A stretch of 22,973 nucleotides of DNA. Origin: a virus. Made by a program: the position numbers and the translations under genes. The notes under the pieces were generated by a model. That model made no database searches. It had not been told where the DNA came from and was given only the letters and a program-made list of their open reading frames with translations. Positions 2,484 to 22,387 of the stretch are shown here, piece after piece. Every line of letters begins with the position of its first letter. The first letter of the stretch is position 1. The stretch covers positions 1 to 22,973 of the IMG/VR virus record IMGVR_UViG_3300031576_001269. The stretch is one strand, 5' to 3'.

Positions 2484-5400
2484 TCAGATCCACCCATCCA
2501 CCCATCTCCCCGTGCCCGAACTCCACCCATGCACCCATGAGTTGCGACGCCTGAGATACTCTTCGATCGCCGGGTCGCGGGGGGCACGCCGCGCGGGCTC
2601 AGGCTCTTTCGTCTCTCCCCCCTTGGGCACCGGCACCGCAAGCCTGGCCGCACGCTCCGGTAGACTCTTCACGAAGTGTGGGCCTAGGATGTAGAGCGCG
2701 GCCAGGCAGTAGACCTCGAGGTCCAACGCCTCATTTCGCTCCCGGGTCTTCACCCACTCGCGCACGGTGCCCCTTCCCTTCACGTACTTCCGCACGGCCT
2801 TCTCGGCGGTGAGTTGCGCCACGTACTCCTCGTCGACCCACTCAGGGAGGTGGCAGTACCCCGGGCCAGCCGCGCTGATCCGCAGGCGGGCCATCACGAT
2901 CTCCTTGGCGGTGTCCGTGCACAGCGTGAACAGCGGCGTGCGGTACCGGTTGTGCCGCGTGGGCTCCCCGACCACGGGCTTCCCGCGCTCGTTCCCGCCA
3001 CGGACGGCGAGCACGCGGCGGTGGGATCGCAGCTTGCAGAACCGGTAGACCTCCTCGGAGTGATGCCCGCCCGAGTCAACGGCGACGCACTCGACGTGGA
3101 TCTTCCGCCCGGACTCGTGGGTGAACGGCTGCTTGAGGAACGCATCGAGTTCATGCCACACCTTCTCGCGGCCGGGGTCCCCGTGGATCTGGGTGTGCGC
3201 GATGAGCCAGGACTCTTCGCTCGCGCCGTAGCCCTTGACCTGCGCTTCCAGGCGATCCCCCTGAACGTCCACCGAGGCCACGAGCACGCCCACGCCGTTC
3301 GGGACCTCGGCCGCGTATCGCTCCGCACGCTCGAGGATCGCGTTCGGGTCCGCGGAGTCCCCACGTTCCTCCCAGGTCTCCCCGAGGATGGTGTTCACCC
3401 AGGTCTTCAGTCGATACGGATCTTCCTTCCCCGCGAGGAACTCCCCCACGCATTGCGGCCAGGAGCGCCAGCCAAGCGGGGAATAGAGCGAAGAGACGTG
3501 GAACCCCACGGTCCCCGTGTCCGATGCGGCCGTGGCCCGCCACTCGCCTCGCGCGAGCATCTCGGGCTTGTGGTGCTCTTCGATCAGCACGCCGCACCCC
3601 ACGCACACCAGACGCGCGGTCTTCGGCTCGTTCGGCTCCCAGCGGATGTTCTCCCACCGGATCCAGTCCATGCGGCCACAGGCAGGACACGGGACGAAGT
3701 ACCGGCGCTGGTCGCTGGCGAGGTACTCCTTCTCGATCCGCGAGAGGTGCTTGGTGGTCGGCGTGGACACGAGGAAGACTTTGCGGCGTGGGAACGTCGT
3801 GGTCCGCTTCTCCGCGAGCCCCACGGGGTCACCCTGACCTTCGACATCTCCGGGGTACTCGTCGACTTCATCGCAGAAGAGATACCGGATCGGCATGCTC
3901 TTGAGCCCGGCCGCGCTGTTCGCACCCGTGAGGATCACGATGCCGCCGGGGAATTCCTTGGAGGTCATCGTATTCCCCGAGTCGCGCGACCTCGCCTCCC
4001 GCACCCGCTCGCGCAACACGGGCGTCCCGCGGATCGCCGGGTCGAGCCGCTGCCGCGAAAACCTTCGCGCGACTTCGACGGTCGGCAAGAGAATGAGCGT
4101 CGGCGCGGGGGCGTGATGGATGATGTAGCCGAGCCAATTCGACCCTGCCTCCGTGTTGTGCGTCGGGATCATCCCGGCCCCTGCAAGGTAGAGATGGCTG
4201 GGTGCATCAACGGCGATACAACGGACGGGCACGCTGGCGAACGGCTGCACTTCGACGATCCGGCGTCGCTCGGCTTCCGTCGGCCGACCGGTCAGCCGAT
4301 TCCGCATGCGTTCCCGCTTCCTTCTCAGCGCGAACACCGGCCGGTCATCGTAGGCCTGGAAGCCGAGAGAATGATGCATCGTGCTGGTCTCCGTCTTGCC
4401 CGAGAAGCCGCGGCCCTCGCGGATCTTGAGGGCCGGCTTGAAACCAAGGCCACGCAGCAGATCGAGCACGTCGGCGACGAGACAGAGGTCGGCCGAGTCG
4501 AAGGAGCACCACCCAGTCTTGGTGATCGTGCCGTCCGTATCCATCAGGCCCCGGAGCAAGTCCATCCTTTGCTCGGAGGAGGCCCGGAGATACGTCTCCG
4601 GGATCCGCTTGTTGCGGACCAGCCCGAGCGTCTGAAGCCGCGAGAAGAACGAGGGTGCGCGGACGACGGGATCACGAGCTCGTCCATACTTCGCGGCCAT
4701 CGCGGCCTGACGAGCGCACTCTGCACAACGCTCGGCCGGCTTCCCACGTTTGAGAACCCGGTAGACGCCGACCTTCTCCTTGTCGTGTCCTCGGCGACAG
4801 ATTCCCGACAACAGCGCCGGCTCGATGATCAGGTTCATGCAGCGTCCCTTGATCCACTGAGGCCGCCGGACAACGACGCGGTGGCCGCCCGCGGCGATTT
4901 GCTGACCTATCTCACCGGCATCGTCCTCGAACGCCGTGATCTGGTTCGAGGCACCATTCCCGTCGCCGAGCCAGGCACCGAGCGCGTAGGGAGCGATGGG
5001 AAGCTCTCGCTCCGGAAGATCAAGCGGTCGCGTGATGGGAATCGCGTATCGATTCCGGTTCTTCCCATGACGATAGGTCGCGGCAATCTCCTGAGTGGTG
5101 AGAACGCGGCGCTTGATCCGCTTCTGTCCGTGGATGTCGTCGTCGACGGCCCAGCGGTGCTCGGCGTCTGCGATGATCGAGGTCCTGTCGCTAAATCGGA
5201 TCTCGTAGCAGCGATGGCCGAGCATCACGGGAGAGACGTACGTGACGGACCGGACTTGGCCTCCTTCGTCGAAGACCTGATCGCCCACCCGGATCTCGCC
5301 CATGGTCGTCCACCCATCGGGCGTCGGGATCGGAGTGTCGAGCGCGAGGGGACCTCCGAGTTGGCTCCCTTTCACGAACACGACGCGCTGAGCCGGATGC

Positions 5401-9210: not shown

Positions 9211-9232
9211 GAGGCGTCATGACCGACGCCTC
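9211..9232. repeat. Inverted repeat in the leader before the Sak4-like gene
   Basis: GAGGCGTC (9211-9218) and GACGCCTC (9225-9232) are perfect 8-bp arms around a 6-nt loop. Together with the hairpin at 9154-9177 it occupies the first part of a stretch (9178-9569) with no convincing gene. The rest of that stretch is C-rich leader DNA in which I see no clear promoter. Confidence 0.4.
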
Positions 9233-9569
9233 GACTCGCTCATGTAGATCGCGTCCCCCCGGACGGCTCCTCTCTCCGGAAGCCTCCCTCCAGAGACCCA
9301 CCTCCCCGCGCAACGATCGCATCCATGCCGCGCCACGTTCGCACGGGGCGGTGCCGCTGTACCTCGACTCCGAGAACGACTTTTCAGTCGCCACCTCTCC
9401 ACCCACAGCCCTCCTTCCCGGCATCGACGGCGAGGCGCCTCTTGAGCGGTCGGGCGCCCGTCGCCATCCCATCAGGATCCTCCACGAAGGCCAGCGCCTG
9501 TGCCTTGCGCTGTTGCTTTTCTTCTCACTAACCGCGGCGCTCCTCGTGGGCGCCCAAGGAGGTAGACCG

Positions 9570-10559
9570 ATGAATGATCAAACCACCCAACCCCGCGCGA
9601 TCTCCGGAAGCGACCCGCCGGTAGAGCGCGGCCCGGACAGCGAGCGCCCGGGTGACTGTCCATTCGAGAGAGCCAGCGCCCGGCCGAAGCGATTCAAGGG
9701 ACTGGCACAGGGTCCGGCTGGGGCTGGGAAGACCCTTCTAGGTCTCCAGTGCCCAGGCCCTGTCTTCATCGATATGGAAGCCGGGACGGATCTGTACGGA
9801 TCCGCCTTCGAGTTCGACGTGCTTCCGGCGACGACGGCCGACGCCGTCATGGTCGCGGTCGACTGGCTCGGGTCCCACCCACACGGTTACCGAACGTTGG
9901 TCATAGACCCGATCACCGTGTACTGGGAGGCACTCCAGCGCAAGTGGAGCGCGATCTTCCTCAAGCGCAACAAGGGCGCGAAGGGCCATCGATTCGAGTA
10001 CTTCGATCTGGGTCCGAAGGAGTGGGCGACGATCAAGGCCGAGTGGCGCGAGCTCATGAGGAAACTGAGCGCCCTCGACATGAACGTGATCGTGACGGCG
10101 CGGGAGAAGCCGTTGTACGCAGAGGGCGGCTTCATGCAGACCATCGGTACGACTCACGACGCCGAGAAGAGCCTGCCCTATCTCTTCGACGTCGCCCTGA
10201 AACTTTTCCGGGACAAGAACGGCCGGTTCATGGCGGAGGCGCTTAAGGACCGGTCCAACAAGCTTCCCCAAGGGGAATTCGAGATCTCCTACAAGGTACT
10301 CGCCGACGCATTCGGGCACGACCTCCTCACGCGTGAGGCACGTCCCGTGGTTCCCGCGTCGGAGGAGCAGGTCCGCGAGGTGCGAGCATTGGTCATTACG
10401 CTCGGGCTCAGGGACACCCTCGTAACGCAGCGGCTCGCGGCGTACGGCGCCGATCGCATCGAAAACCTCACCGCCGAAGCCGCGACCGAGATCATCGAGA
10501 AACTCAAGGCGGCTCGTGACGCGAAGGCGGCCGCCACCAGCCACGGAAAGGAGGCATGA
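9570..10559 (+). CDS. RecA-fold AAA ATPase, Sak4-like recombination protein
   Basis: The 329-aa protein has a P-loop GPAGAGKT (48-55) following KRFKGLAQ, a Walker B TLVID (109-113), and a compact RecA-type core with FIDMEAGTDLYGS after the first strand. This arrangement matches phage Sak4/AAA_24 proteins, RecA-like factors that promote single-strand annealing with a phage SSB. The C-terminal ~90 residues (after about 240) are a helical tail with SEEQVREVRALVITLGLRD, often seen in this group. The ATG at 9570 is chosen because AAGGAGGT lies 6 nt upstream; the frame is open another 117 codons 5' but that part is not protein-like. The next gene, an ssDNA-binding protein, starts 1 nt after its stop, a typical pairing that supports the call. 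Confidence 0.85.
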   Translation: MNDQTTQPRAISGSDPPVERGPDSERPGDCPFERASARPKRFKGLAQGPAGAGKTLLGLQCPGPVFIDMEAGTDLYGSAFEFDVLPATTADAVMVAVDWLGSHPHGYRTLVIDPITVYWEALQRKWSAIFLKRNKGAKGHRFEYFDLGPKEWATIKAEWRELMRKLSALDMNVIVTAREKPLYAEGGFMQTIGTTHDAEKSLPYLFDVALKLFRDKNGRFMAEALKDRSNKLPQGEFEISYKVLADAFGHDLLTREARPVVPASEEQVREVRALVITLGLRDTLVTQRLAAYGADRIENLTAEAATEIIEKLKAARDAKAAATSHGKEA

Positions 10560-10560
10560 C

Positions 10561-11025
10561 ATGCCACGCATCAACTTCAGCACGGTCGACGACGCGACGG
10601 ACTTCACGCCACTCCCAGAGGGCACCTACGCGTGTCGAATCGACTCAGTCGAGGAGGCGCGGACGAGCCGGGGAGACGAGATGTGGAAGCTCCGGCTCGT
10701 CGTCACCGAGGGCGAATACGCGGGCCGCCTCATCTTCGACAACTTGGTCTTTTCGGAGAAGGCGCTCAAGCGGGTGAAGTTCGTCTGCTCCCGACTCGGA
10801 CTGGACGTCTCCGGAGAGCTGGATCTCACGCCCGCCATGATCCACGGAAAAACCTGCCGTGTGCGGGTCGAGATCGAGGAGTACGTCGACGAGGAGGAGA
10901 AGGAGAAGACGCGCAACCGCGTCCCGTTCGCCGGATACGTGGCCGCGGCGAGCGACGTGGACGGTGCCGCTGGTAGCGAGGAGGGCGCGACGGATGGCGA
11001 TGGGGACGACGACCTCCCCTTCTGA
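10561..11025 (+). CDS. DUF669-type single-stranded DNA-binding protein with SSB-like acidic tip
   Basis: The 154-aa protein begins MPRINFSTVDDATDFTPLPEGTYACRIDSVE, the typical opening of DUF669 phage proteins, and has the family's GRLIFDNLVFSEKALKR segment (about 60-80). These proteins act as phage SSBs with an OB-like fold. The tail is acidic and disordered and ends DDDLPF, nearly the DDDIPF tip by which bacterial SSB recruits partner proteins; that tip is the strongest functional hint. AAGGAGG lies 6 nt before the ATG. It directly follows the Sak4-like gene, and the ERCC4 nuclease gene starts inside its 3' end, so the three form one recombination cassette. Confidence 0.85.
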   Translation: MPRINFSTVDDATDFTPLPEGTYACRIDSVEEARTSRGDEMWKLRLVVTEGEYAGRLIFDNLVFSEKALKRVKFVCSRLGLDVSGELDLTPAMIHGKTCRVRVEIEEYVDEEEKEKTRNRVPFAGYVAAASDVDGAAGSEEGATDGDGDDDLPF

Positions 11026-11530
11026 AACGAACGCGGGTTTCGTCGTCGTGATCGATTCCCGCGAACAAAGGCCGTACCGGTTCCGGGGAGCGGTCACCAA
11101 GCCGCTCCCCACCGGGGACTACAGCATCGCTGGCCTCGAGGACCGGATCGCGATCGAACGAAAGTCGAAGAAGGACGCCTACGCATCGCTCGGTCACGAC
11201 CGCGCGCGCTTCCTGCGCGAGGTGGAGAGGCTGTCGCAGCTCGAGTACGCGGCGATCGTAATCGAGGCGTCGCTCCCGAGCTTCTTGCAGGCTCCCGAGT
11301 TCACCAGGATGAGCGCGCGGTCAGCGGTGCGCTCGCTCTTGGCGTGGTCTGTTCGGTTTGGTGTCCCCGTCCTCTTCGCGGGAGACCGGCGCCATGGGCG
11401 GGCGGTCACGCTCTGCCTCCTTGAGCAGTTGTGGCGGTACCGAGGCGCTGGAACCGGCACCAGTGAGCCGCCGCGTCGCACTATTGGTTTCGGCAGGAGG
11501 GTCGACGATGTCGGCGCTGGTACCCGCTGA
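10994..11530 (+). CDS. ERCC4-type DNA repair nuclease
   Basis: The 178-aa protein carries the XPF/ERCC4 nuclease signature: VIDSREQRPY (Asp and the REQ turn, about 17-26), GDYSIAG near 45, and the catalytic IERKSKKDAY (about 56-65). This is the stand-alone nuclease seen in phage recombination modules, expected to cut branched or flap DNA. The ATG at 10994 has GAGGAGGG 8 nt upstream and lies 32 nt inside the ssDNA-binding protein gene; a second ATG two codons on is equally in frame. The C terminus overlaps the primase start by 23 nt. No helix-hairpin-helix domain is present, so a partner may provide DNA binding. Confidence 0.85.
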   Translation: MAMGTTTSPSETNAGFVVVIDSREQRPYRFRGAVTKPLPTGDYSIAGLEDRIAIERKSKKDAYASLGHDRARFLREVERLSQLEYAAIVIEASLPSFLQAPEFTRMSARSAVRSLLAWSVRFGVPVLFAGDRRHGRAVTLCLLEQLWRYRGAGTGTSEPPRRTIGFGRRVDDVGAGTR

Positions 11531-14063
11531 GCATCCGAACGATCGGCTCGAGGCCGCGCTCGCCTACGCACGCCATGGGTGGCGCGTCCTCCCGATTCAA
11601 AGCGCGGAAGACGGGATCTGCTCGTGTGGCCGGAAGAGCTGCGATAGCCCGGCCAAGCACCCGCGCACCGCGCGCGGACTGAAGGATGCCACGACGGACG
11701 AGCGTCGGATCCGCGCGTGGTGGAGGAAGTGGCCGAACGCCAACGTCGGCATCGCGACGGGAGCCAAGAGCGGCCTGGTGGTCCTCGACGCCGACGCACG
11801 CCACGGCGGCGAGGAGTCGCTCCTCGAGTTGAAGTCGCGCTTCGGCCCACTCCCCGACACGGTTCAGGCGCTCACCGGAGGAGGGGGGCGCCACCTCTAC
11901 TTCCAGCACCCAGGCGGTCAGACCCGCATCCGGAACGCCGTGCGCCTCCTCGGCCTCCCCGGAATCGACGTGAGGGGCGACGCCGGTTACGTCGTCGCTC
12001 CGCCGAGCCGGCACGCGAACGGCCGCGAGTATCTGTGGGAGCTGTCGAGCGCGCCCGACGACGTGCCGGTCGCGCCGCTACCGCCTTGGCTCCTCGATCT
12101 ACTCGTGCCCCCGCGGGTCCCCACCGACACGCCACGCCACGACGGGAGCGGCGACAACCCCGCGACCGATACGCCCTATGGGCTCGCTGCGCTGGAGGCC
12201 GAGGCCCAGCGCGTCCGCTCCGCCGCCAAGGGGACGCGCAACGACACCCTGAACCGCGCCGCGTTCGTCATCGGACAACTCGCCGCAGGCCATCAACTCG
12301 AACCGCACCCGGCCGCCCGGCGCCTCCTCGAAGCCGCTCTCGCCACCGGGCTCACGGAGCGGGAGGCGGAGGCGACGATCCGGAGCGGCTGGCGCGCAGG
12401 ACGCCGGGAACCCCGCGAACCCTCGCCGCCCGCAAGCCAGGACACCTCCCAACCCAAGGGCGCACCCCAGCCGGGCCCCTCCCCGGCCCGCCATCGGGAT
12501 GGCTACATCCTCGTCCCCGGTCAGCACACGACGGACCGCGGCCAGCGCTTCGAGATCGGCAACGACGACTTCGCGTCCGCGGTTCTCGAGGCACTCCCGG
12601 AGGGCCTCCTCTACCGCTGGGATCGCGTCGTCGGGGATATCTCCGGAGTCCCGGGGGATCGCCGGTTCATCGAGATCGGGGTGGACCGAATGCGCCTGCT
12701 GGTCGACGAACATGTGCAGCTCGCCAAGTGGCTCAGGAAGCGGAAGGCGGAGAAGCCCGCTCGGATCTTCGTCGCCTCGTCGCGAGACCACGCAGCACTT
12801 GTCCTGGCCGCCGCCGCTTGGTCAGAGCGTGTTCGCGCGCTCCGGCTCCTCACGCACTACCCCGTCTTCGCCGAGGAGGGCCTCAACCTCGTCCGGCCTG
12901 GCTGGAACGCGGGGAGCAGGATCTACTACGACGAGCCGCCCGATCTCGTCGGTCTCGTGCCCGAGCGCATCGAGCCGAGCCAGATTGCCGCCTTCATCGA
13001 CGACCTCTTGGTCGATTTCCCGTTCAAAGACTCCGCGTCGAAGCAGAACTTCCTCGGGCTCCTCCTGACGCCGCTCCTCGCCCCGGCCATCGAAGGCTGT
13101 ATCCCGATGCACCTCGTCATGGCCTCGCTCGAGAGGACGGGCAAGGGACTTCTGATCTCGTCGCTCCTTGGCCGCGGCATCTGCGGCCGTCCGATCCCGA
13201 CGCTCCAGATCGGGATGTCCGAGGAGGAACGCGAAAAGCGCATCACCTCGCTCATCCTCGAAGGAGCGACCGTCACTCACCTCGACAACATTCCGACCCG
13301 GGCCGCACTGGATTCCGCCGCGCTCTCCTCGCTCCTGACGTCCCGCATCTGGAAGGGACGCCAGCTCGGGGAGTCCCGCACCCCGGAGCTTCCCAACAAC
13401 CTGATCCCGGTCGCCTCTGGCAACAACGTCCGCGCGACGGGCGAGGTCGCGAAGCGGTGCGTCCCCATCTGGCTCCAGCCGCTCGACGACCATCCTGAGG
13501 ACCGCGCGGACTTCGCCCACCCAGACATCCAGAGGTACGCGCGGGAGAACCGCCGCCGCCTTCTCGCCATCCTCCTCGGCCTGGTGCTCGCTTGGAAGGA
13601 GGCCGGCCAGCCCCCGGGCACCGCGCGACTCGGCGGGTTCGAGGAGTGGGCGAGGACGATCGGCGGGATCCTCCACCTCGCCGGCTTCGACGCGTGGATG
13701 ACGAACTACCGCGCCTGGGTCTCGGTCGCCGACGACTGGACCGCCGACGCTCAGGCCCTCGCCGAGCGCTGGTGGGCACGCCACGGCGGGGCGCCAATAT
13801 CCGCATCCGACGCCCTGAGACTTCTCGTTTCGCTGCCCCCCATCTTCCCCTGGGTGACCGCCCGTCACGAGTCCAGCCAGCTCATGACCTTCACCAAGGG
13901 CGTCCTCCTCCAGATGGTCGACCGCCCGCTTCGGGGTCACCGACTCGAGAAGGAAAGGTCTGGGAACAACTCGCTCTACCGGATGACATACGACCCGGAC
14001 GCGGAACGCGTTGCAAACACAGGCCATCCGGGAGGTCCGGGAGGTCACCGGGAGGTCAAATGA
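11508..14063 (+). CDS. Primase-polymerase (prim-pol) fused to a C-terminal ATPase/helicase-like domain
   Basis: The 851-aa protein starts at ATG 11508, with AGGAGG 7 nt upstream. The N-terminal ~200 residues are a bifunctional primase/polymerase domain: YARHGWRVLPI, a Cys-rich CSCGRKSC..PAKHPRT element, GLVVLDADARHGG with the catalytic DAD, GGGGRHLYF, and IDVRGDAGYVVAPPSRH. A Pro-rich linker lies near 310-335. The C-terminal part resembles phage and plasmid replicative ATPases: LERTGKGLLISSLLG is in the P-loop position and THLDNI in the Walker B position. The P-loop is atypical, with no leading Gly and Gly rather than Thr/Ser after Lys. It is the replication core of the element. Its last codons run into GGGAGGTC repeats. 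Confidence 0.88.
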   Translation: MSALVPAEHPNDRLEAALAYARHGWRVLPIQSAEDGICSCGRKSCDSPAKHPRTARGLKDATTDERRIRAWWRKWPNANVGIATGAKSGLVVLDADARHGGEESLLELKSRFGPLPDTVQALTGGGGRHLYFQHPGGQTRIRNAVRLLGLPGIDVRGDAGYVVAPPSRHANGREYLWELSSAPDDVPVAPLPPWLLDLLVPPRVPTDTPRHDGSGDNPATDTPYGLAALEAEAQRVRSAAKGTRNDTLNRAAFVIGQLAAGHQLEPHPAARRLLEAALATGLTEREAEATIRSGWRAGRREPREPSPPASQDTSQPKGAPQPGPSPARHRDGYILVPGQHTTDRGQRFEIGNDDFASAVLEALPEGLLYRWDRVVGDISGVPGDRRFIEIGVDRMRLLVDEHVQLAKWLRKRKAEKPARIFVASSRDHAALVLAAAAWSERVRALRLLTHYPVFAEEGLNLVRPGWNAGSRIYYDEPPDLVGLVPERIEPSQIAAFIDDLLVDFPFKDSASKQNFLGLLLTPLLAPAIEGCIPMHLVMASLERTGKGLLISSLLGRGICGRPIPTLQIGMSEEEREKRITSLILEGATVTHLDNIPTRAALDSAALSSLLTSRIWKGRQLGESRTPELPNNLIPVASGNNVRATGEVAKRCVPIWLQPLDDHPEDRADFAHPDIQRYARENRRRLLAILLGLVLAWKEAGQPPGTARLGGFEEWARTIGGILHLAGFDAWMTNYRAWVSVADDWTADAQALAERWWARHGGAPISASDALRLLVSLPPIFPWVTARHESSQLMTFTKGVLLQMVDRPLRGHRLEKERSGNNSLYRMTYDPDAERVANTGHPGGPGGHREVK

Positions 14064-14214
14064 CGACCTCCCGCCTCGCAACTTCTTTCATACCAAGACC
14101 GCGGGACGAACCGCGGGAGGTCCGGGAGGTCTTTGGCATTCTCGCGCGTGAGAAGGGAACTGGACTCTCCTATAAAACCCGGAGGAACACCCCCCGGACC
14201 TCCCGGACCTCCCG
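14028..14214. repeat. Direct and inverted GGGAGGTC repeat region at the primase 3' end
   Basis: GGGAGGTC occurs at 14030, 14039, 14050, 14115 and 14124; its complement GACCTCCC at 14065, 14197 and 14206. The pairs are 9 nt apart. CGGGAGGTCCGGGAGGTC (14114-14131) and its exact 18-nt complement (14197-14214) can form a long stem around a 65-nt loop, followed by TTTT. The loop holds a smaller TTCTC/GAGAA hairpin. Within the primase gene the copies are read in two different frames, so selection is likely on DNA or RNA rather than protein. A terminator, an origin or a translation-control element are all possible. Confidence 0.6.
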
Positions 14215-14308
14215 TTTTGCCCCCGTGGCATGCCTGCGCGCCAGGCCCCGGGCGCCGCGACCCCACTCACCAAACCCAACCCGAAAGGAGGCGATGACAA
14301 ATGGTTAG
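14060..14308 (+). CDS. Doubtful 82-aa ORF overlapping the repeat region
   Basis: An ATG overlaps the primase stop (ATGA) and opens 82 codons, with GGGAGGT just upstream. The product is low-complexity (REVREVF near the N terminus, TPRTSRTSR later) because it simply translates the GGGAGGTC repeats and their complements. Third-position GC is mixed, unlike the neighbours. The remaining DNA up to 14300 holds only the ribosome site of the next gene. I consider it more likely untranslated, but the coupled start means it cannot be dismissed. Confidence 0.2.
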   Translation: MTTSRLATSFIPRPRDEPREVREVFGILAREKGTGLSYKTRRNTPRTSRTSRFAPVACLRARPRAPRPHSPNPTRKEAMTNG

Positions 14309-14621
14309 CCGCAGTCCGGTGGAGCGCGATGAAGCTCCCCGGATCTCCGAGGTCCGGTTCCGGTTCGTCCCCGATGGCCGCGATGGCTTGCTCGCGTACG
14401 CGTCGTGTCGCTACCACGACGTCGTGTTGAACGACATCGCGATCCGGCGAGACGAGACGGGGAGGCTCTTCCTCACGTTCCCGAGGAAGCTCTCGTCGAC
14501 GGGCCACCCGCACCCGATCCACTTCCCCCTGAGCCGGGAGGCCACAGCGGAGTTCGAGCGGGCGATCCTGGGGCAGCTTCGGCGGCTGGTCGGGGTGGAC
14601 GGGAGGCGCGCTGAGGGGTGA
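14301..14621 (+). CDS. SpoVG-like protein
   Basis: The 106-aa protein follows the SpoVG pattern: ISEVRFRFVPDGRDGLLAYASCRYHDVVLNDIAIRR, then an F-P segment (LFLTFPRK), a conserved P-I-H step and a C-terminal helix (REATAEFERAIL). SpoVG-family proteins are small nucleic-acid-binding regulators, first described in Bacillus sporulation and also found in phages. Compared with SpoVG proper the central MP of the loop is FP. AAAGGAGG lies 9 nt before the ATG; another ATG 7 nt upstream in a different frame opens only four codons. The next gene, of apparently the same fold, overlaps its stop codon. The role in this element is unknown; control of replication or late genes is a guess. Confidence 0.7.
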   Translation: MVSRSPVERDEAPRISEVRFRFVPDGRDGLLAYASCRYHDVVLNDIAIRRDETGRLFLTFPRKLSSTGHPHPIHFPLSREATAEFERAILGQLRRLVGVDGRRAEG

Positions 14622-17414: not shown

Positions 17415-18947
17415 GTGGCCACGGTCCTCGTCAACGGGCGGCGGAACGGGGGCGGCAACGGGTCGTCTGTGGCCGCTCCCACCGTCGTTCGGTGTGCCGT
17501 CTACTGCCGGCAGTCGGTCAGCGAGGGGAATGGCGAGTCCGCGAGCATCTCGGTCCAGCGGGAGGCCTGCGAGGCGTTCATCGTCGCCCACAAGGCCGAA
17601 GGCTGGCTCAACGTGTCCGACACCTACTCCGACCAGGGGATCAGCGGTGCCACCCTCCAGCGGCCCGGGATGCAGCGGCTCCTCGCCGACATCGAGGCGG
17701 ACCGCGTGGACGCGATCGTCACGTACAAGTTGGACCGCGTGTCGAGGAACCTCGCCGACTTCGCGGCCCTCGTGGCCATGCTGGAGCGCCGCGGGATCCG
17801 GCTCGTCTCCGTCACGCAGTCGTTCGACACGAAGTCGGCGGTCGGGCGGCTCACACTCGGGATCCTGATGTCGTTCTCGGAGTTCGAGAGGAGCCTCGTG
17901 AGCGAGCGGACGCGGGACGCGGTGGTCTCCGCGAGGAAGAAGGGCCGGTGGACGGGCGGGGTGACGCCCTGGGGGTACACGCTCGTGTCCGGGAAGTTGA
18001 TCCCCGACCCCGTCGAGGCTCAGCGCGTAAAGGAAACTTTCGCTCTGTACCTTCAGCACGAGAGCCTCATCGACGTGGCCGAGGCCCTCAACGCCCGTGG
18101 CTGGAAAACGAAGGTCACGGGGACTCGGGATGGCGGGACACGGGGCGGGGTCGCGTGGTCGAAGTCGAGCGTCCACCGCGTGCTCTCGAACCCCGTCTAC
18201 GTCGGGCGCGTGGTGGTCGACGGCGCGGCCTTCAAGTCCGAGTCCCCGGCGATCGTCGACCGGGCCACGTGGACCGCCGTGCAGGAGCGGTTGGAGCAGA
18301 ACGGCGGGGAGCACACCCGGGCGGCGAGGTACGAGAGCGGGGCGTTGCTCCGAGGGCTGCTCTACTGCGGCTCCTGTGGCTCCGCGATGTCGCCAAGTTG
18401 CGCGAGGAAGGGGCCGAGGGTGTATCGATATTACCGGTGCTCCCGAGCCCTCAAGCAGGGCCGCGCCGCGTGCCCCTCCCGCCACGTCTCCGCCCCCGCC
18501 ATCGAGGCCCAGGTCGTCGCGGAGATCGCGAAACGGGCGAACGACCCGGCCGTGGTCGAAGCCATCACGCTCGCCGCCAAGGAGCAACTCGCCGAGAAGC
18601 GCCGGGGGCTCAACGCGGAGAAGCGGGCCATCGACCGGGCCATCCGGGATGCAGCCAAGGAACGGGCCGAGACGACCCACGATCGCATGCCCGCTCTGGA
18701 CCGCCGTGTCAGCGAGCACGAGGCGCGCCTGGCCGCGATCAAGCAGGAGGCCGCCTCCCTGGCCGCCATGGAGGTCGACCCGGAGCAGGTCGCCCGGACC
18801 GTGGCCGACTTCCCGACCGTATGGGGCGCTCTCCTACCACGCGAGCGCCGCCGTGTCTCTGAGATCTTGATCGCCCGCGTTGTCGTCGACGGGAGCCCTG
18901 GCTGTCCAGCCGTCACTCTCCGCGAGGTCATCCCAGCTAGCGCGTGA
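17415..18947 (+). CDS. Large serine recombinase
   Basis: The 510-aa protein has the resolvase catalytic domain (about 25-175) with the nucleophile Ser34 in YCRQS, the ISVQ(R) and YSDQGISG motifs, and YKLDRVSRN near 104-112. The recombinase domain follows (about 185-300; ARKKGRWTGGVTPWGY, then VHRVLSNPVYVGRV). Next come a zinc ribbon (Cys318, Cys321, Cys342, Cys353) and a coiled coil (about 385-450). This is the layout of serine integrases that join attP and attB. The start is a GTG with no strong ribosome site. The stop overlaps the next gene's GTG (GTGA). It could be the integrase of the present element or of a smaller one nested in it; no att site could be identified. Confidence 0.93.
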   Translation: MATVLVNGRRNGGGNGSSVAAPTVVRCAVYCRQSVSEGNGESASISVQREACEAFIVAHKAEGWLNVSDTYSDQGISGATLQRPGMQRLLADIEADRVDAIVTYKLDRVSRNLADFAALVAMLERRGIRLVSVTQSFDTKSAVGRLTLGILMSFSEFERSLVSERTRDAVVSARKKGRWTGGVTPWGYTLVSGKLIPDPVEAQRVKETFALYLQHESLIDVAEALNARGWKTKVTGTRDGGTRGGVAWSKSSVHRVLSNPVYVGRVVVDGAAFKSESPAIVDRATWTAVQERLEQNGGEHTRAARYESGALLRGLLYCGSCGSAMSPSCARKGPRVYRYYRCSRALKQGRAACPSRHVSAPAIEAQVVAEIAKRANDPAVVEAITLAAKEQLAEKRRGLNAEKRAIDRAIRDAAKERAETTHDRMPALDRRVSEHEARLAAIKQEAASLAAMEVDPEQVARTVADFPTVWGALLPRERRRVSEILIARVVVDGSPGCPAVTLREVIPASA

Positions 18948-20647
18948 CCATCCCCATGGCCCCCGACACGCCTTTCCGCCTCTACTCCTCCGGCGTGGTA
19001 AGATCGGCCTTCGGACCCATCTACAACCGCGAGGGCCACTTGGCCGAAAACCTCCTCTTCTACGGCGACAACCTCGACGTCCTCCGTCGGCACATCAAGG
19101 ACGAAACGGTCGACCTCGTCTACCTGGACCCGCCGTTCAAGAGCAACCAGGACTATAACGTGCTGTTCGCCGAGCAGAACGGGTCGCGCTCGGCCGCGCA
19201 GTTCGAGGCGTTCGAGGACACGTGGAGGTGGGATCAGGGAGCAGAAGCAGCGTACCAGGAAGTCGTGGAGGCTGGGGGACCTGTCTCCGCTGCGATGCAG
19301 GCATTTCGACTGTTCCTGGGCGAGAGCGACATGATGGCGTACCTGGCCATGATGGCCCCTCGTCTGGTGGAGCTTCGCCGGGTGCTGAGGACGTCCGGAT
19401 CGATCTACCTTCATTGTGATCCAACCGCATCTCACTACCTGAAAGTTTTGATGGACGCTGTCTTCGGGCCCCCCGCATTCAGGAACGAGCTCGTCTGGAA
19501 GCGGACGCCCTTCTCGGGGAGCAGCAAGGCCCGGGCGCGGCAGTACCCTCGGTCGCACGACGTGATCCTCTTCTACTCTCGTGGGGATGACTGGACGTGG
19601 TCTCCTCCAACTCGCCCCTATTCCGATGAGTATCGCGCTCGCTTCAAGTGGGATGATAGCGATGGTCGCGGACCCTACAGGAAGACTCTGCTCAAGACCT
19701 TCTCCAAGGAGACGTTCGATCGACTGAAGGCCGACAACAGGCTCATCGCTCCTCAGAGGACGGGCGCCAAATGGTCATACAAGCAGTATCTCTCTGAAAG
19801 CTCCGGGACTACCCAGATCGATGACACCTGGATGGATGTGAATGCCATCAACCCGGTTGCCAAAGAGCGCCTCGGATACCCTACGCAAAAGCCCGAGGCT
19901 CTACTCGAACGCATCATCACGGCGAGCAGCAACGAGGGCGATACCGTCCTCGACCCCTTCTGCGGCTGCGGGACCGCCGTGGCCGTCGCTCAGCGCCTTA
20001 ACCGCCGCTGGATCGGGATCGACGTCACTCACCTGGCAGTCACGCTCATCAAGAGCCGCCTGCGCGACACCTTCGGGGACGGCGTGTCGTACAAGGTGAT
20101 CGGCGAGCCGGTCTCCATCCCCGATGCCGCAGAACTCGCTGAAGATGATCCCTACCAGTTCCAGTGGTGGGCCCTCGGCTTGGTCGGGGCGCGTCCTGTC
20201 GAGCAGAAGAAGGGCGCGGACAAGGGCATCGATGGCCGGCTCTACTTTCACGACGAGTCTGCGACCGGAGGCAAGACGAAGCAGATCATCCTGTCGGTGA
20301 AAGCCGGGAACCTCACAGCCAACCACGTCCGAGATCTCCGAGGGGTGATCGAGCGGGAGAAAGCCGAGATCGGTGTTCTCATGTCGATGGAGGAGCCGAC
20401 TCAGCCGATGCGGAAGGAGGCCGCCACCGCGGGCTTCTACTCCTCTCCATGGAACACGAAGCATCCGCGGATTCAGCTTCTTACCGTGGCTGAACTCCTC
20501 GACGGTCGAGGGATCGACTATCCATCGCGCCAGGGCAACGTGACGTTCAAGAAGGCCGCCCGGGTCAAGGAGAAGGCGAAGGAGCAGCTGACGCTCGTGG
20601 CGGAGGGCGACTCAGACTACCGGCCACGACGGAAGCGTCCCCGATGA
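18944..20647 (+). CDS. DNA methyltransferase fused to a restriction-endonuclease-like domain
   Basis: The 567-aa protein starts at a GTG overlapping the recombinase stop (GTGA). Residues about 35-370 form a beta-class N4/N6 amino-methyltransferase: LVYLDPPFKSN (DPPF 62-65), YPTQKPEALLERI and then the SAM motif DPFCGCGT (337-344). Residues about 400-525 add an endonuclease-like fold: DPYQFQWWALGLVGA, GADKGIDG with Asp430, then IILSVKAG with Lys453, giving the D...(S)xK active-site layout of Mrr-like nucleases, and a final IQLLTVAELLDG. A single chain able both to methylate and to cut is therefore possible. The middle of the gene is less GC-rich than the recombinase gene. Whether the nuclease part is active is not known. 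Confidence 0.88.
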   Translation: MTIPMAPDTPFRLYSSGVVRSAFGPIYNREGHLAENLLFYGDNLDVLRRHIKDETVDLVYLDPPFKSNQDYNVLFAEQNGSRSAAQFEAFEDTWRWDQGAEAAYQEVVEAGGPVSAAMQAFRLFLGESDMMAYLAMMAPRLVELRRVLRTSGSIYLHCDPTASHYLKVLMDAVFGPPAFRNELVWKRTPFSGSSKARARQYPRSHDVILFYSRGDDWTWSPPTRPYSDEYRARFKWDDSDGRGPYRKTLLKTFSKETFDRLKADNRLIAPQRTGAKWSYKQYLSESSGTTQIDDTWMDVNAINPVAKERLGYPTQKPEALLERIITASSNEGDTVLDPFCGCGTAVAVAQRLNRRWIGIDVTHLAVTLIKSRLRDTFGDGVSYKVIGEPVSIPDAAELAEDDPYQFQWWALGLVGARPVEQKKGADKGIDGRLYFHDESATGGKTKQIILSVKAGNLTANHVRDLRGVIEREKAEIGVLMSMEEPTQPMRKEAATAGFYSSPWNTKHPRIQLLTVAELLDGRGIDYPSRQGNVTFKKAARVKEKAKEQLTLVAEGDSDYRPRRKRPR

Positions 20648-21763: not shown

Positions 21764-22387
21764 GTGACGAGGAATCGGACACTGCGCGGTCAGGGCCTGA
21801 CGTGGGCGCCCACCCGGTCCTCTGCGGCTTCGGACCGATCGACGAGCCCGATCTATCAGCTGAAGGTCACGCTTGCCAACATCCGGCCTCCGATCTGGCG
21901 AAGGCTCCAGGTCCGCGGGGACATCTCCCTCTTCCGGCTTCACGAGATCCTCCAGCGGGCCATGCCGTGGACCGACTCCCACATGCACCAGTTCATCGTC
22001 GGGAGGACGTACTACGGCCGGGCGGATAGCCAGCTGCGTATGGAGATCCTGAGCGACAGGTCGAACACGCTCGCGGAGGTCGCCCCGGCGCCAAGGAGGC
22101 GGTTCATCTACGAGTACGACTTCGGGGACTCCTGGGAGCACGAGATCGTCGTCGAGAAGATCTTGCCGTCCGATGCTCCGGCCAGGTGCCCCGAGTGCCT
22201 GGCTGGCGAGCGCGCCTGTCCGCCCGACGACTGCGGAGGCTTCCCGGGCTACGAGCATCTCCTCAAGGTGCTGGGCGACTCGAAGCATCCCGATCACGAA
22301 GAGATGAGGGAATGGCTCGGCCGCCTCTTTGACCCCGAGGCGTTCGACCTCGTGTCCGTAAACCGAAGGCTCGGCAGGCTCCGATGA
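21764..22387 (+). CDS. Plasmid pRiA4b ORF-3 family protein
   Basis: The 207-aa protein has all the family landmarks: YQLKVTLANIRPPIWRRLQV (about 31-50), LHEILQRAMPWTDSHMHQF, FIYEYDFGDSWEHEI, a Cys-containing CPECLAGERACPPDDCGGFPGYEHLL and a final EWLGRLFDPEAFDL. The family is widespread in bacteria and mobile DNA; its function is unknown. The first 30 residues are a basic, disordered extension not usual for the family; the GTG start is kept because of the TATACT box just upstream. The next gene overlaps its stop (ATGA). Confidence 0.88.
   Translation: MTRNRTLRGQGLTWAPTRSSAASDRSTSPIYQLKVTLANIRPPIWRRLQVRGDISLFRLHEILQRAMPWTDSHMHQFIVGRTYYGRADSQLRMEILSDRSNTLAEVAPAPRRRFIYEYDFGDSWEHEIVVEKILPSDAPARCPECLAGERACPPDDCGGFPGYEHLLKVLGDSKHPDHEEMREWLGRLFDPEAFDLVSVNRRLGRLR

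Follow-up and report, generated by a model that had tools for sequence, protein, structure and literature searches.

A bipartite iteron array at the 3' end of a Prim-Pol/helicase gene as the most likely replication origin of a phage-like element

Iteron origins beside the gene of their own initiator are already known from SaPI/PICI elements, SCCmec Cch2 and plasmid pWTY27. In pWTY27, a 300-bp non-coding sequence (ncs) beside repA is needed for replication in S. lividans (PMC3583192). It contains five GTGGGAAC and five TTCCCAC repeats, and binding of RepA to it was demonstrated by gel shift and DNase I footprinting. Replication, which is bidirectional, was restored when the 300-bp sequence was added back, while a 149-bp part was insufficient (PMC3583192). 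The Prim-Pol of this plasmid is a separate protein, RepB, and RepA is the shown binder (PMC3583192), which suggests that it is the RepA-type protein that recognises the repeats. The C-terminal domains of SCCmec Cch2 and SaPI Rep bind downstream iterons, in the case of Cch2 just 3' of its own gene. Binding by Cch2 required direct and not inverted repeats, and for the partner primase-polymerase, CCPol-MP, the iterons of the putative origin are efficient priming sites (PMC7581432). The pri-rep-ori region of SaPI/PICI elements (PMC6092414) is also among the closest known systems: two iteron sets flank an AT-rich region 3' of rep.

A different description was given for pRN1, where an essential 100-bp stem-loop lies 3' of the Prim-Pol/helicase gene and iterons are said to be absent; a similar stem-loop was proposed for phage BIP-1 (PMC4234260). 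Both the symmetry of the pRN1 stem and the loop were needed in vivo, and a stem mutation was rescued when symmetry was restored, which for pRN1 speaks more for a folded structure than for iterons alone. The GTG priming motifs of the stem-loop were dispensable (PMC4234260). Finally, the alpha protein of phage P4 is a fused primase-helicase with an origin-binding winged-helix domain (PMC4234260), but its primase is of the Toprim type.

The window, which is the whole stretch of 22973 bases analysed here, a virus record, encodes a protein consisting of a Prim-Pol domain (PF09250, E 3.6e-48) and, at the C-terminus, a half that is a putative helicase or P-loop ATPase (11508-14063, + strand). The frame opens at TTG 11358 and ends with the stop codon at 14061-14063, ATG 11508 being a guess for the start. 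Residues 436-817 match phrog_10537, a family of unknown function. The C-terminal half could be aligned with pWTY27 RepA and other proteins. It is labelled a putative helicase on the basis of GSGKS-type motifs in some relatives and the putative-ATPase annotation of some of its tblastn matches; a Pfam search of this half gave no helicase match. Its P-loop-like stretch (residues ~156-162 of the part encoded by 12663-14060) reads RTGKG, and seven aligned relatives mostly have GSGKS/T; the ATPase of the window may be unusual or inactive. AlphaFold2 on the helicase half with six sequences gave no usable model (pLDDT 34.5). A search of solved structures with A1 returned 11 matches, mostly to designed proteins (the "Cake" series, matched over 26 positions, and P-loop designs) and none to a natural helicase.

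As for the neighbouring genes, a recombination cluster (Sak4-like ATPase, DUF669, ERCC4 nuclease) was found 5' of the primase at 9219-11530. On the 3' side of the repeats lies a SpoVG-like gene (14301-14621, + strand; 27.6 bits, under the Pfam cut-off of 29.6). A serine recombinase (Pfam) occupies 17415-20647 together with the gene directly after it, in which a DNA methylase is joined to an Mrr/REase-like domain; a PRiA4b ORF-3-like gene lies at 21764-22387.

The motif GGGAGGTC occurs ten times across the window, against a mean of 2.17 and a maximum of 8 in 100 dinucleotide shuffles. Eight of the ten copies lie within 14030-14213, five forward (starting at 14030, 14039, 14050, 14115 and 14124) and three reverse (14065, 14197 and 14206), confirming the Shine-Dalgarno (SD)-like and complementary copies that the original prediction had placed near the primase end. 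The array straddles the primase stop, with three copies before it and five after it. The left iteron group (14030-14057, + strand; steps of 9 and 11 bp) belongs to the coding sequence of the primase, its three copies falling within the final 34 bases of the gene, and a single iteron (14065-14072, - strand) follows just past the stop codon. Further downstream, an inner left pair (14115-14131, + strand; step of 9 bp) and an inner right pair (14197-14213, - strand; two reverse copies) enclose a spacer at 14132-14196, which is a candidate melting region. The exact 18-bp stem that had been predicted is present as an inverted pair (14114-14131/14197-14214) with a gap of 65 nt and two 9-bp units per side, and TTTT follows directly after its last arm (14215-14218). 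The predicted frame change within the primase gene was also observed, the three in-ORF copies having phases 2, 2 and 1 relative to 11358, a single change.

The record was scanned for canonical 7-mers on both strands, each strand having to contribute two or more copies to a 400-bp span. The array was its strongest cluster, with 8 copies versus 5 for the next best and at most 5 in 10 dinucleotide shuffles. As RNA, the array stretch folds with a z value of -4.63, a good fold, as inverted repeats would give. The spacer has an AT content of 0.43 compared with 0.34 for the record, and 9.5% of the record's 65-mers are equally AT-rich; for its sub-stretch 14132-14181 the AT content is 0.48 and the proportion 2.6%. 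Two inverted pairs enclose this spacer, as iteron sets would in a PICI origin, but its AT content of only 43% makes the likeness uncertain. An open frame of 82 aa (14060-14308) was also noted, whose ATG at 14060 overlaps the primase stop as ATGA. The third GGGAGGTC copy (14050-14057) ends 2 nt before this ATG, in the position of an SD sequence, and the translation includes REVREV, derived from the repeats. A Pfam search of this ORF gave no match. The frame is probably not a gene, and the third iteron could act as an accidental SD for it.

The helicase half matched pWTY27 by tblastn with an E value of 3e-16 (79% coverage, 28.8% identity), and in multiple alignments the window protein and RepA are ~25% identical. 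In both elements a gene for a RepA-homologous initiator has at its 3' end ~8-bp repeats in both orientations, and in pWTY27 the Prim-Pol is encoded adjacently (PMC3583192). The two differ in that Prim-Pol and RepA are two proteins in pWTY27 and one in the window, in the repeat core, and in the start of the array, which in the window lies inside the gene. The SCCmec system differs from the window in its three 5-nt iterons and its separate primase (PMC7581432). The cumulative GC-skew minimum of the window, at 14529, lies ~400 bp from the array. In four of seven records, namely the window and six complete plasmids, this minimum was less than 600 bp from the array (the window, the S. cyaneofuscatus plasmid at 1 bp, pWTY27 and pCM32), and it was far off in the other three. 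The probability of this coincidence was ~2e-4, or 2e-3 without the window, with a 600-bp limit that was fixed after the data had been seen. Because the window is possibly incomplete, less weight attaches to its skew than to the skew of the plasmids.

In order to locate relatives, tblastn was run with the helicase half, which gave 59 phage and 10 plasmid records. The window and 16 records chosen from these 69 were submitted to the 7-mer scan, as whole records or as 29-50 kb. In nine of the 17, the top both-strand cluster had its midpoint 58-233 bp 3' of the primase/helicase stop: the window, Methanosarcinales virus vir525, Nonomuraea, pWTY27, three other Streptomyces plasmids, pCM32 and an Azospirillum element. 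The chance expectation was 0.39 records (P ~3e-11), for a 650-bp target that was fixed after the data had been seen. The eight records missed by the scan were Methylobacterium, Rctr197k, Legionella and five large phages. In Methylobacterium the two-letter core was removed by the filter and the array is visible by eye; with the filter relaxed it reached four copies, level with background places. A weak array could be seen by eye in Rctr197k. In the large phages with a related protein (Mesorhizobium, CcrBL10, RcXuper, Bambus and phiAsp2), no array above background was detected. The phage records outside the scan are, by name, nearly all kin of large Caulobacter, Brevundimonas and Ruegeria-type phages, and plasmid record H62 was outside it as well. 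The expectation that repeats would be found at the same place in related elements held for many relatives and failed for the large phages. The same layout was observed at the same place in actinobacterial plasmids, in alphaproteobacterial and viral elements and in an archaeal virus.

Loci from IMG/VR and genomes that carry arrays with new cores (L001, L003-L005, L007 and L073-L078) were added. An array score of at least 6 was obtained for 16 of 28 primase/helicase ends and, among the remaining ORF ends of these records, for 11 of 554; with a score of at least 5 the counts were 18/28 and 41/554. The control ORFs were those of at least 150 aa in any frame, and the 28 ends are not independent, as close relatives (L059/L076/L077 and L003/L005) are included. 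Twelve ends scored below 6. Seven of them scored 0 (Rctr197k, Legionella, Mesorhizobium phage, RcXuper, Bambus, L074 and L075, the last two having short arrays seen by eye), three scored 4 (Methylobacterium, CcrBL10 and phiAsp2), a value common among the controls (133/554), and two scored 5 (L073 and L004). Omitted from this comparison were 16 Bacillota Prim-Pol loci (L041-L056), L002 and L051, whose frame runs off the locus. Both-strand clusters of at least 5 were found in two of the 16 Bacillota loci, which is an unfair test since these loci extend only ~1.5 kb beyond the domain and often stop before the gene does. In L002 the array is absent from a contig that ends ~600 bp after the match.

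The anatomy of the arrays was tabulated for 23 loci, many of them array carriers known beforehand, so that the table describes anatomy and is not a test. The relatives have cores of ~8 bp, usually at steps of 9 bp, in both orientations around a spacer. Among 80 neighbour steps in 18 arrays, counted with one mismatch allowed and up to a step of 14, 38 were of 9 bp and 72 of 8-11 bp. The cores are specific to lineages and include GGGAGGTC, GCGGGTAT, TGCGGGTAT, GCGGGGTTT, GCGGGTAGT and GTGGGAAC, as well as GCAGGGA, AAACCCGG, AGTGGGTTT, CGGCAAA, TGGAAGGA, TGCGGACAA and GGTGAAC. The GGTGAAC repeats of L051 are presumably the P4 iteron. The cleanest array is that of Azospirillum, in which three AGTGGGTTT units are followed by an AT-rich spacer of ~70 bp and three reversed units. 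The cores of L074 and L075 have changed between helicases that are 72% identical, and over 14 elements core similarity tracks helicase identity (rho 0.34, reached in 45 of 5000 permutations and in 42 of 5000 without two close relatives), with core strings that were written out by hand.

The position of the array varies: it lies 3' of the gene in most cases, straddles the stop in the window and L001, and falls within the 3' coding end of the primase in L007 (6348-6540) and L078 (1290-1481), on both strands. In L051 (3238-3415) it lies in the frame that runs off the locus. Since the array may thus come after the gene, across the stop or inside the tail, the peptide that it encodes looks like a passenger; in L007, L078 and L051 the initiator would have a tail coded for by the very sites to which it binds. 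Together, the large phages with no array above background, the many relatives with arrays and these gene-internal arrays gave a mixed outcome for the refuting conditions set with the original prediction.

Two candidate common features were rejected. GGG is present in 11 of 12 helicase-type 7-mers and in none of the six other loci; the exception among the former is the scored 7-mer of the window, whose 8-mer GGGAGGTC does have GGG. An alternating purine-pyrimidine tract in the spacer (35 nt in Nonomuraea, 14 in BIP-1, 8 in the window, p 0.36) was not general over 20 arrays. By eye, alphaproteobacterial-type arrays contain AACTGTCA within the spacer, in most cases together with TGACAGTT as a complete or partial inverted counterpart (L067 15910-15945, L073 2060-2110, L075 4700-4725, L037 3485-3565), and GCAGGTCAGA or its reverse is common to the arrays of pWTY27, S. 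rubiginosohelvolus and Nonomuraea. Such shared spacer motifs are possibly a site for a second factor. Triples of GGGAGGTC were present in 14 stretches of other viral contigs, several of which look by eye like collagen-like or tandem coding repeats. The only triple-bearing contig with both orientations was L026 (5753-6035, a GACCTCC cluster of 4+2 copies), where no ORF of at least 200 aa runs into the array, the nearest being at 4465-5220.

The pRN1 group resembles the window in having a Prim-Pol and SF3 helicase protein with an inverted-repeat origin of ~100 bp just downstream in pRN1, pRN2 and BIP-1 (PMC4234260), but these origins were published as stem-loops without iterons. The window fits their layout of a ~20-bp inverted repeat around a ~58-nt loop, with its 18-bp arms and 65-nt gap 3' of the Prim-Pol gene, and unlike pRN1 it has four more copies outside the stem. 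The 21-bp arm of pRN1 contains TGTCCA twice at a 9-bp step (58-nt loop), and the 20-bp arm of pRN2 contains GGAC twice at the same step (57-nt loop). Compared with shuffles, the 9-bp lag gave 0.011 and 0.062 for the two arms, jointly 0.002. These repeats are suggestive only, since in pRN2 a 5-bp lag (9/15) outscores the 9-bp lag, and in pRN1 the arm repeat is outnumbered by a 6-mer located elsewhere, the array ranking second with 6-mers. In BIP-1, two TTGCCTCGT units and their reverse complement flank a 64-bp spacer (64% AT versus 34% in the surrounding stretch), 467 bp past the stop of the replication gene, at 4791-4894 of the reverse complement of AY526909. This array has the same layout as that of the window, and competes with the published stem-loop as a candidate origin. 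It was the top cluster with 8-mers and the second with 7-mers; in plain 7-mer scans neither the BIP-1 nor the pRN1 array was the top cluster. A tentative reading, for which we see slightly less than an even chance taken as a whole, is that the stem-loop origins of pRN1, pRN2 and BIP-1 are inverted 9-bp iterons too. A single architecture would then serve Prim-Pol/helicase replicons across bacteria and archaea: a ~60-nt spacer with an inverted set of ~9-bp iterons on either side, placed where the initiator gene ends. Its repeats would drift with the helicase, may enter the initiator coding sequence and may double as primer starts.

We consider it very likely that the repeats of the window are the iterons of a theta-type origin belonging to the Prim-Pol/helicase gene that they overlap. 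The most likely form is a bipartite iteron origin that adjoins its initiator gene and extends into it. Its position, the repeat structure, the recurrence of the layout with lineage-specific cores and the nearby GC-skew minimum were observed in the window and its relatives. By analogy with the pWTY27 homologue, the array would be required for replication and bound by a helicase-type protein. The helicase half, probably through its C-terminal domain, would bind the ~9-bp units in both orientations, assemble over the spacer, perhaps as a ring, and melt it, and the Prim-Pol domain would prime both strands for bidirectional replication. An origin next to the primase, one of the roles originally predicted, is well supported by the arrays at the same place in relatives and by the pWTY27 experiments. 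What speaks against this reading are the eight records missed by the scan, the twelve low-scoring ends, the spacer of only 43% AT, the skew minima far from the array in three of seven records, the identity to RepA of ~25%, the RTGKG stretch, the negative Pfam search for a helicase and the rescue of the pRN1 stem by symmetry.

A DNA stem-loop (cruciform) recognised by its fold and not by the repeat sequence, comparable to pRN1 and to IR2 of pWTY27, would agree with the exact 18-bp pair and its 65-nt gap, with the RNA fold (z -4.63), with the in vivo requirement for stem symmetry and loop in pRN1 (PMC4234260) and with the fold-back proposed by the pWTY27 authors (PMC3583192). It is nevertheless unlikely, because direct repeats at steps of ~9 bp, which a stem does not need, recur in most lineages read, unequal copy numbers such as those of pCM32 (8 versus 2) give no single clean stem, and SCCmec Cch2 needs direct and not inverted repeats (PMC7581432). 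It is likewise doubtful that the repeats are template start sites of the Prim-Pol on both strands, besides or instead of being bound by the helicase. The occurrence of GGGAGGTC in both orientations and the priming of CCPol-MP at SCCmec iterons (PMC7581432) are in line with this function, but the binder in pWTY27 is RepA and not the Prim-Pol RepB (PMC3583192), and pRN1 can dispense with its GTG priming motifs (PMC4234260).

An SD/anti-SD translational switch, decoy or terminator on the primase mRNA had also been predicted, and we regard it as highly improbable. In its favour are the agreement of GGAGG/CCTCC with the 16S tail, the distance of 2 nt from the third copy to ATG 14060 and the TTTT after the last arm. 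Against this, GGAGG was found in the core of the window and in none of the 17 other tabulated cores (those of L003-L005, with GGAAGG, are loosely SD-like), the C-rich orientation comes first in vir525, S. cyaneofuscatus and pCM32, and the 82-aa ORF lacks a Pfam match. A terminator scan of 13900-14350 gave none on the + strand and two on the - strand (mean of shuffles 0.7), a 65-nt gap is not terminator-like in spite of the TTTT, and an Rfam search of the array stretch gave no match at gathering scores. Since relatives keep the array with non-SD cores, the likeness of GGGAGGTC to the 16S tail is probably a coincidence. Iteron arrays can bind repressors too, and the repeats could be operators for autoregulation of the operon that play no part in an origin. 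This explanation is scarcely credible, as the array lies at the 3' end and not on the promoter side, and as the 300-bp sequence restored replication in pWTY27 (PMC3583192).

With the repeats read as iterons of the initiator, what is new is the repeat of the window and the lineage of fused Prim-Pol/helicases to which it belongs. Among the titles and abstract openings listed in searches of open-licence papers, none states a general rule for Prim-Pol replicons, and the present arrays question the claim that PICIs are the only elements known to have this origin layout. They are also a candidate for the sequence motifs that the pRN1 authors expected the replication protein to bind and had yet to identify. 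The suggested rule for finding origins is to look for a both-strand array with a 9-bp step at the 3' end of a Prim-Pol/helicase gene; applied to the window, it points to an origin that can be tested by experiment, in a phage-like element still uncharacterised.
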